Below are positions 32,882 through 35,204 of a DNA stretch of 44,330 bases, in pieces (positions within the stretch are counted from its first letter, which is position 1; every line of letters begins with the position of its first letter). Made by a program: the position numbers and the translations under genes. The notes below the pieces were generated by a model. It was given only the letters and a program-made list of their open reading frames with translations. It was not told the DNA's origin and ran no database searches. Source of the DNA: Nitrospirota bacterium (GTDB taxonomy: Bacteria; Nitrospirota; Thermodesulfovibrionia; Thermodesulfovibrionales; JdFR-85); assembly GCA_035873375.1 (NCBI GenBank), contig JAYWMQ010000052.1:1-44330 (forward strand). The letters run 5' to 3'.

Positions 32882-34324
32882 ATGGCATATAAAGACCTGA
32901 GGGAATTTATAACCCTTCTTGAAAAAAAGGGATTACTGAAGCGGATAACGGCCGAGGTTGACCCTGTCTTTGAGATTGCAGAGATTAACGACCGTGTGGT
33001 AAAGGCAGGAGGGCCCGCCCTACTTTTTGAAAATCCAAGGGGAGCAAAATTCCCCTGCATCGTAAACCTCTTCGGCTCATACGAACGGATGAACCTTGCC
33101 CTTGAAGTTGAAAACCTTGATGATATCGGCAGGGAGATTCTGGAGTTTCTGGAACCGGAGATCCCTACGAATTTCATGCAGAAGCTCAAGGCCCTGCCAA
33201 AACTCAAGCAGTTGAGCGATTTTCTCCCCAAATATGTAAAGAACGGTGTCTGCAAAGAGGTGATTACACGGGAAAACCCTTCTCTTGACATCTTTCCGGT
33301 ACTCAAGACATGGCCTGAGGATGGAGGAAGGTTTATAACCCTTCCAATGGTCTTCACAAAGGACCCGGAAACAGGTGAGCGTAACTGCGGGATGTATCGT
33401 ATGCAGGTCTATGACTCAAGGACAACAGGGATGCACTGGCATATGCACAAAGATGGTGCAAGGCATTACCGTAAGGCTGAAAAACTGGGAAAGAGACTGG
33501 AAGTGGCTGTTGCCATCGGGGCTGACCCTGCAGTCATGTATTCTTCAACAGCCCCGCTCCCGGAGGGTATAGACGAGATGCTCTTTGCAGGGTTTTTAAG
33601 AAAATCGCCGGTTGAGCTCGTTAAATGCGAGACTGTAGACCTTGAGGTCCCTGCAAATGCAGAGATAGTGCTTGAGGGTTATTGTACACCAAAGGAGAGG
33701 AAGGTCGAGGGCCCATTTGGTGACCATACAGGGTATTACTCATTACAGGATGAATTTCCGGTCTTCCACATCACCTGTATAACCCACCGAAGGGATGCAA
33801 TCTATCCGGCAACAATCGTCGGCAAGCCTCCGATGGAAGACTGCTACATGGCAAAGGCCACGGAAAGGATATTTTTACCCCTCCTGAAGAAACAGCTTCC
33901 CGAAGTTCTTGATATGAACCTCCCGGTTGAGGGAGTATTTCACAATATCGCCATCATATCCATTGACAAACGTTACCCCGGACATGCGCGCAAGGTAATG
34001 TATGCACTATGGGGAATGGGGCAAATGAGCTTCACGAAGATGATAGTGATAGTTGACAGCTGGGTCAATGTCCAGGACCCCGGTGAAGTCGTATGGAGGT
34101 TAGGCAACAATGTCGACCCCTCGAAGGACGTTGTGATACTTGAGGGCCCGCTGGATGTGCTTGAGCACGCCTCACGGATACCTGCTTACGGAGGCAAGAT
34201 GGGCATAGATGCCACAAAAAAATGGAAGACAGAGGGCTTTACACGTGAGTGGCCGGATGACGTTGTGATGACGCCGGAGATAAAAAAGCTTGTGGATGAG
34301 AGATGGAAGGAGTATGGGTTCTGA
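32882..34324 (+). CDS. ubiD: UbiD-family decarboxylase
   Basis: UbiD enzymes use prenylated FMN to decarboxylate aromatic or unsaturated acids. The 480-residue protein has NCGMYRMQVYD with the conserved Arg, LEVAVAIGADPAVMYSS, and EGPFGDHTGYYS with the acidic pair that forms the E-R-E site. Length and motifs fit UbiD or menaquinone-pathway decarboxylases. The cofactor is made by UbiX, whose gene is convergent 265 bases downstream. A small Cys-rich gene with an in-frame TGA lies between. The product could serve ubiquinone, menaquinone or aromatic metabolism; sequence alone does not say which. AGGAGG is placed five bases before the ATG. Confidence 0.93.
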   Translation: MAYKDLREFITLLEKKGLLKRITAEVDPVFEIAEINDRVVKAGGPALLFENPRGAKFPCIVNLFGSYERMNLALEVENLDDIGREILEFLEPEIPTNFMQKLKALPKLKQLSDFLPKYVKNGVCKEVITRENPSLDIFPVLKTWPEDGGRFITLPMVFTKDPETGERNCGMYRMQVYDSRTTGMHWHMHKDGARHYRKAEKLGKRLEVAVAIGADPAVMYSSTAPLPEGIDEMLFAGFLRKSPVELVKCETVDLEVPANAEIVLEGYCTPKERKVEGPFGDHTGYYSLQDEFPVFHITCITHRRDAIYPATIVGKPPMEDCYMAKATERIFLPLLKKQLPEVLDMNLPVEGVFHNIAIISIDKRYPGHARKVMYALWGMGQMSFTKMIVIVDSWVNVQDPGEVVWRLGNNVDPSKDVVILEGPLDVLEHASRIPAYGGKMGIDATKKWKTEGFTREWPDDVVMTPEIKKLVDERWKEYGF

Positions 34325-34358: not shown

Positions 34359-34556
34359 TTGAGACCGGGAGATTTGGAAGAGAAGAAGCCTGTTTGCAGA
34401 AACTGCAGTGCTGAGCTGAAGCTTTATATTGGCTGACGGACGGCAAAGCTCTGCTGCACGGAGTGCAGCAATACCTTTACCATCAGTGAGTATATTGATG
34501 AACTCACTGAAGAGATGTGGGAGAGGATAGCGCTGAGGCCCTGTAACAGGGCCTGA
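34359..34556 (+). CDS. Candidate selenoprotein: dual CXXC motif small (seleno)protein
   Basis: A 65-codon frame, interrupted only by TGA at codon 26 (34434-34436), runs from TTG 34359 to TGA 34554-34556. It has CRNC (13-16) and CCTEC (32-36), then an acidic helix (ISEYIDELTEEMWERI) and a CNRA end. This matches what I remember of the dual CXXC motif small (seleno)protein family, in which the first CXXC is followed by a strand, a Cys or Sec in C/U-R-R-V context and the second CXXC. Here the TGA is followed by Arg-Thr-Ala-Lys exactly there. A stem-loop with a G-initial loop sits downstream, as expected for a bacterial SECIS. TTG start with GGAG 12 bases upstream is the best option but uncertain. 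A plain nonsense mutation is the alternative. Confidence 0.6.
34437..34470 (+). promoter_or_regulatory. Putative bacterial SECIS element
   Basis: Fifteen bases after the in-frame TGA, TGCTGCAC (34452-34459) pairs perfectly with GTGCAGCA (34463-34470) around the loop GGA. The loop begins with G and starts 24 bases after the TGA, within the range described for bacterial SECIS elements read by SelB. The stem lies inside the coding frame, as bacterial SECIS elements do. Confidence 0.55.
34536..34554. repeat. Perfect 8-bp hairpin at the end of the selenoprotein candidate
   Basis: AGGCCCTG (34536-34543) pairs with CAGGGCCT (34547-34554) around TAA, overlapping the stop codon. It may end or stabilise the transcript between convergent genes; no T-run follows. 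Confidence 0.4.
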
Positions 34557-34589: not shown

Positions 34590-35204
34590 TTACTGTTGCC
34601 ACCTTTTATACAGGTCATGGTCAATACGCATCTGATCAAGGACCTTTCCTGCCATAAAATCGACCATATCATCAATGCTTTCCGGCTTGCTGTAAAAACC
34701 GGCAACAGGGGGCACTATCCTCACGCCAAGCCTTGCAAGCTTGAGCATGTTTTCAAGATGGATGGCACTGAGCGGGGTCTCCCGGGGCGAAAGGATAAGG
34801 GGTCTGCCCTCTTTTATTGAAACATCGGCAGCCCTCTCTATAAGGCTGTCGGCATATCCGTTTGCTATAGCAGAGAGGGTCTTCATGGTACAGGGAACTA
34901 TGAACATCGCATCGATCCGAAAGGAACCACTTGAGACAGGGGCCCATAAATTCTGCCCGTTATGTACAAAAAGACCATCAAAGGAAGATAGTGCATTGCC
35001 GTCTGACTTTTTCTCCTTAAGCCAGGTCTTAAGCCTCTCTTCCGGCTTTTCTGAAAGATCAAGGCCCACCTCTTCCCTTATTATCGAGATGGCGGGCCCT
35101 GAAAGGATGAGATGAACCTCGGAGTCCTCAACCAGTCTTTCAAGTATTCTCAGCCCCATAACAGGACCGGTTGCACCAGTTATTGCAAGAATATATCTCC
35201 TCAT
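34590..35204 (-). CDS. ubiX: UbiX flavin prenyltransferase
   Basis: UbiX attaches a dimethylallyl group to FMN to make the prenyl-FMN cofactor of UbiD. The 204-residue flavoprotein has the N-terminal GATG motif (ITGATGPVMGLRIL), VHLILSGPA, IVPCTMKTLSAIANGYADSLIERAADV, LILSPRETPLSAIHLENMLKLA and the C-terminal PPVAGFYSKPESIDDMVDFM. The fold and Ser/Glu/Arg segments match known UbiX proteins. It faces ubiD and should supply its cofactor. The ribosome-binding site is AGGTG just before ATG 35204. Confidence 0.95.
   Translation of the reverse strand: MRRYILAITGATGPVMGLRILERLVEDSEVHLILSGPAISIIREEVGLDLSEKPEERLKTWLKEKKSDGNALSSFDGLFVHNGQNLWAPVSSGSFRIDAMFIVPCTMKTLSAIANGYADSLIERAADVSIKEGRPLILSPRETPLSAIHLENMLKLARLGVRIVPPVAGFYSKPESIDDMVDFMAGKVLDQMRIDHDLYKRWQQ

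Follow-up and report, generated by a model that had tools for sequence, protein, structure and literature searches.

Gene organization of the locus

The window, by which we mean the whole stretch of 44,330 nucleotides analysed, carries a very small open reading frame with an in-frame TGA codon between a ubiD gene and a convergent ubiX-family gene (Table 1). The frame (34359-34556, plus strand) consists of 65 sense or selenocysteine (Sec) codons followed by a TGA stop, and in this 65-codon numbering the two CXXC motifs lie at C13/C16 and C33/C36, on the two sides of U26. Translation and a six-frame scan agree with the original prediction of a 65-codon frame with two CXXC motifs and an in-frame TGA at 34434-34436, and the CXXC-TGA-CXXC arrangement was found a single time across the six frames of the whole window. 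The predicted product of 65 residues fared less well. The TTG at 34374 lines up with the ATG starts of the sister genomes L043 and L045, and on this comparison it is more likely to be the start than the TTG at 34359 noted earlier, which is still a possible one; the protein would then have about 60 residues, with Sec as residue 21. The spacing of this non-AUG start from a GGAG is unusually short. At the gene's stop, and spanning its last codons, there is a perfect GC-rich hairpin (AGGCCCTG TAA CAGGGCCT, window positions 34536-34554). No T-run terminator was found at this hairpin, and neither the promoter and terminator scan of the locus nor an Rfam search of the window gave a useful lead.

Table 1. 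Positions of the features at the small selenoprotein locus in the window
Feature	Position	Strand	Description and evidence
ubiD, menaquinone biosynthesis decarboxylase type	32882..34324	+	Directly upstream; TIGR03701 670 bits (cut-off 495.9), Pfam UbiD
Selenoprotein gene of the NF041197 family (very probable)	34374..34556	+	Likely TTG start, ~60 aa, Sec as residue 21, TGA stop at 34554-34556
First CXXC (CRNC)	34395..34406	+	Invariant, 78/78 homologues
In-frame TGA, very probably read as selenocysteine	34434..34436	+	Homologue codons and Sec machinery in the genome
SECIS-type hairpin, 8-bp stem, GGA loop	34452..34470	+	Folding, Sec/Cys comparison, TGC fixation in the stem
Second CXXC (CTEC), coded within the SECIS stem	34455..34466	+	Invariant, 78/78 homologues
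ubiX-family flavin prenyltransferase	34590..35204	-	Convergent, downstream; NF004685 and TIGR00421 above cut-off

Family assignment and distribution

When the TGA is read as Sec, the frame matches the NCBIfam model NF041197, 'dual CXXC motif small (seleno)protein', with 52 bits (cut-off 40) over profile positions 1-52 of 53. A six-frame search of the genome with the same model gave a single locus with one internal TGA (43.7 bits), and Pfam offered no convincing family for the small protein. A review of 2026 enters the family twice. One entry, OS_HP3 (motif RxU), goes back to the 2007 work of Zhang and Gladyshev on the Olavius algarvensis symbiont (PMC13188914); the other, 'hypothetical protein DW' (motif GxU), comes from deep-Sep (PMC13188914; PMC12013277). 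The RefSeq accession given for the family is WP_425411677.1 (PMC13188914). The earlier statement that small dual-CXXC proteins with either Cys or Sec are known is thus correct, the family being catalogued in both sources (NF041197; PMC13188914). Generic ORF callers do miss the gene, as had been anticipated, although not "entirely", as the NCBI library models the family. The protein shares with NF041197 both CXXC motifs, the single Sec between them, a match along the whole length of the profile and the existence of Cys-containing homologues. It differs in having I-G-U where OS_HP3 has R-x-U and in the linkage to ubiD seen in its lineage, neither of which contradicts membership. The window gene is a member of a known, functionally uncharacterised family, and the family is not new.

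Homologues were found in 36 of 41 near-relative genomes, the window's own genome counted, and in 152 of the 396 genomes of the phylum Nitrospirota that were sampled. The named loci from a profile scan of contigs belong nearly all to Nitrospirota/Nitrospirae MAGs, Thermodesulfovibrionales included.

The in-frame TGA codon

In a gap-free alignment of 78 distinct homologues the codon at position 26 is TGA in 71, TGT in five and TGC in two, with no other codon at the site. Besides the four cysteines of the CXXC motifs, residues L22, Y45, E48, W54, R60 and R64 are each present in more than 85% of the 78 sequences, and the residues after the TGA are conserved through to the C-terminus across the phylum. 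Moreover, 17 codons downstream of the TGA differ from those of the relative L080, and 15 of these differences are synonymous (P ~7e-8 against an expectation of 25%); the part after the TGA is therefore taken to be translated. Alignment with homologues at codon 26 had been proposed as a check, and it returned only TGA or Cys codons (71 and 7 of 78) together with a strongly conserved downstream region. The C that follows the TGA had also been pointed out; the base is indeed C, but it is weak evidence for Sec, as 51 of the 71 Sec-form relatives have A there and 20 have C, because a conserved Arg, Lys or Thr residue follows Sec.

The SECIS-type hairpin

The stem is formed by positions 34452-34459 (TGCTGCAC) paired with 34463-34470 (GTGCAGCA), a perfect match of 8 bp closing a GGA loop at 34460-34462. 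The hairpin starts 15 nt past the TGA, with 23 nt from the UGA to the loop, and its folding energy is -11.5 kcal/mol. The published limits for a bacterial SECIS element are a loop of 3-9 nt, a stem of 4-16 bp, a G in the first two loop bases, a UGA-to-loop distance of 16-37 nt and a minimum free energy of at most -7.5 kcal/mol (PMC13188914). All the values of the window hairpin lie within them, and the bacterial SECIS geometry that had been recognized from an 8-bp stem with a G-initial loop 15 nt after the TGA was confirmed by folding and by these limits.

Of 73 Sec genes, most have a hairpin at the same position (mean -8.3 kcal/mol), whereas it is weak or absent in most of seven Cys genes (mean -2.3 kcal/mol). 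The stem is built upon the codons of the second CXXC, and in the Sec genes TGC encodes 135 of the 142 cysteines there (95%); the share is 87 of 142 (61%) at the first CXXC of these genes and 6 of 14 (43%) at the second CXXC of Cys-type genes. Fisher tests gave p values of 9e-9 and 7e-5 for the two Cys columns of the second CXXC against the first, and 2e-6 for TGC in the second CXXC of Sec against Cys genes, all of them optimistic since the sequences are related and not independent. The stem shows little base-pair covariation, most of its positions being fixed by the amino acids they encode. Taken alone, the window gene has a hairpin energy that is not significant (p 0.08) against shuffles whose codons come from the homologues themselves, which makes the test conservative.

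Selenocysteine machinery and the reading of UGA

The 2.67-Mb Nitrospirota genome to which the window belongs contains selA (contig C48), selB (C13), a tRNA-Sec with anticodon UCA (C61) and selD (C2), so that the search for selA, selB, selC and selD recommended with the original prediction found all four. Its selD is itself a selenoprotein gene with an in-frame TGA in the motif KAAG-U-AGKLGPGD (L075, G000:C2:65053-65967). Two loci match the formate dehydrogenase alpha subunit above cut-off (L136, G000:C36:17107-19107, and L137, G000:C48:11793-13796), one with a single in-frame TGA and the other without, and they are possibly Sec and Cys paralogues in one genome. The in-frame TGAs of selD and of the formate dehydrogenase match serve as positive controls for UGA recoding from within the genome.

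The genome also encodes a second tRNA above the Rfam tRNA-Sec cut-off (58.2 bits; L004 1501-1597, G000:C44:44398-44490), with anticodon GCA, U73, a long acceptor and variable arm and cysteine features. By these sequence features it is a tRNA-Cys of the selC-star type that mimics tRNA-Sec, a class known from Nitrospirae of which some related genes bear an opal anticodon (PMC7609411).

Taken by the generic code the frame would end at the TGA, which bacterial release factor 2 reads, and what follows would be an untranslated remnant or a product of chance. The strong purifying selection past the TGA speaks against this, as do the conservation of the C-terminus across the phylum and the existence of Cys alleles whose frame continues across the site. 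A true stop was rejected on the post-TGA selection and can hardly be credited. Nor is it at all probable that a suppressor tRNA inserts Cys or Trp at the UGA. The second tRNA makes the idea worth considering by its score, its cysteine identity and the opal anticodon of some of its relatives (PMC7609411), but its own anticodon GCA decodes UGC and UGU and not UGA, for which reason Cys insertion by it was rejected; moreover tRNA-Sec (UCA), selA, selB and selD are all present. The assignment of the TGA to selenocysteine is thus supported by the machinery, by a site that holds only TGA or Cys codons, by the conservation after the TGA and by the SECIS-type hairpin. On this computational support we consider 34374-34556 (plus strand) to be a genuine UGA-decoded selenoprotein gene, with Sec at 34434-34436, at a probability of about 95%.

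Sec and Cys forms in relation to selA

Across the 396 genomes, 141 have both the family and selA, 11 the family only, 34 selA only and 210 neither, so that the presence of the family goes with that of selA. Eight Sec-form genomes are without a detected selA (G077, G162, G225, G231, G309, G332, G357 and G395), perhaps from incomplete assembly. Six genomes of the phylum sample have the Cys form, three of them without convincing selA (G206, G256 and G258) and three with it (G184, G250 and G346). The SECIS-type hairpin is lost from one Cys-type clade (L048, L056, L060 and L090), which carries the motif G-C-T-A/T-A-F-L-S-C-T-K-C and writes its second CXXC mostly with TGT. As selA is kept in two genomes of this clade (G250 and G346), the change from Sec to Cys was not solely the result of losing the machinery.

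Genomic neighbourhood

The upstream flank is assembled in 13 genomes of the window's GTDB family, and in every one of them ubiD lies immediately 5' of the small gene. In several genomes of this family the start of the small gene overlaps or abuts the ubiD stop, which suggests translational coupling. In the GTDB family of the window the small gene is probably co-expressed with the menaquinone-type ubiD. Outside this family the neighbours match NYN_YacP, a CxxCxxCC (zinc/iron-chelating) protein or AICARFT_IMPCHas (PurH), and another, recognized by eye, we take to be ribosomal protein L13. Adjacency to ubiD as a general functional link was rejected on these differences. Since the neighbours vary elsewhere in the phylum, the linkage is lineage-specific and ubiD is more likely the host operon than a general partner. 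A further reading, quite improbable, is that in this Nitrospirota family the menaquinone-type UbiD/UbiX pair has the small selenoprotein as its own redox or metal partner, one that might for example protect or activate the prenylated-flavin enzyme and would carry a selenol at the tip of a zinc-ribbon hairpin.

At L083, L084, L108, L112, L115, L116 and L118 the small selenoprotein gene has a gene for a CxxCxxCC (putative zinc-/iron-chelating) protein behind it on the same strand. This neighbour, found in several other lineages, is a possible functional clue.

Predicted fold and function

The structure model (pLDDT 67, pTM 0.44) shows a beta-hairpin with strands at residues 19-24 and 29-33 and Sec26 in the turn. 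Pfam zinc-ribbon matches were weak; a Foldseek search with this model returned several zinc ribbons among its matches, none of them significant, and a PDB sequence search with the small protein gave no useful lead. The two CXXC knuckles and the predicted beta-hairpin are shared with C4 zinc ribbons such as those of RNA polymerase RPB9/RPC10 and topoisomerase I, to which the structural matches are weak and non-significant. What sets the protein apart is the additional Sec or Cys between the two motifs, together with a conserved stretch at the C-terminus that contains Tyr, Trp and two Arg. The knuckles and the modelled hairpin point to a C4 zinc ribbon whose hairpin would carry a selenol at its tip. 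The second half is also weakly similar to the zinc-binding region of HypA, the hydrogenase nickel-incorporation protein, but the score is far under every cut-off and the window protein is without the nickel-binding N-terminal domain. To our knowledge HypA contains no Sec.

On the computational evidence, SelB and the hairpin at 34452-34470 should direct the ribosome to insert Sec at UGA 34434, after which translation should run on to the TGA stop at 34554. For the protein itself the following mechanism can be proposed. The two CXXC pairs of a zinc-ribbon fold would together hold one metal ion, probably zinc. Sec would sit in the turn (G-U-R/K) of the beta-hairpin that connects these pairs, and there it may be a redox-active or electrophile-reactive selenol acting upon a partner protein. 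This redox zinc ribbon is a tentative prediction, to which we would give not quite even odds. Sec could instead coordinate metal, at a site of five ligands or an alternative one, and serve metal handling or sensing rather than redox catalysis, a reading to which four invariant Cys and a Sec or Cys within about 60 residues, as well as the weak similarity to the metal-handling HypA, lend some weight. We regard it as rather unlikely: the four knuckle Cys of a canonical C4 ribbon already saturate the metal, Sec is predicted by the model to lie in the hairpin turn, and Sec is used more often for redox chemistry. Our preferred reading is a selenol with redox activity that would serve a partner protein; metal handling is the main alternative. 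The redox or metal-binding role suggested with the original prediction is thus a plausible one.

What is new here is the breadth of the family in Nitrospirota, the near-universal use of Sec in it and its lineage-specific place right behind a menaquinone-type ubiD. The TGC codons fixed in the hairpin stem are a codon-level signature that separates Sec from Cys alleles within one family, and the lineage-fixed linkage to ubiD is one testable lead on the function of the family. A very small gene that is invisible to ordinary ORF callers thus represents a widespread Sec protein in Nitrospirota.
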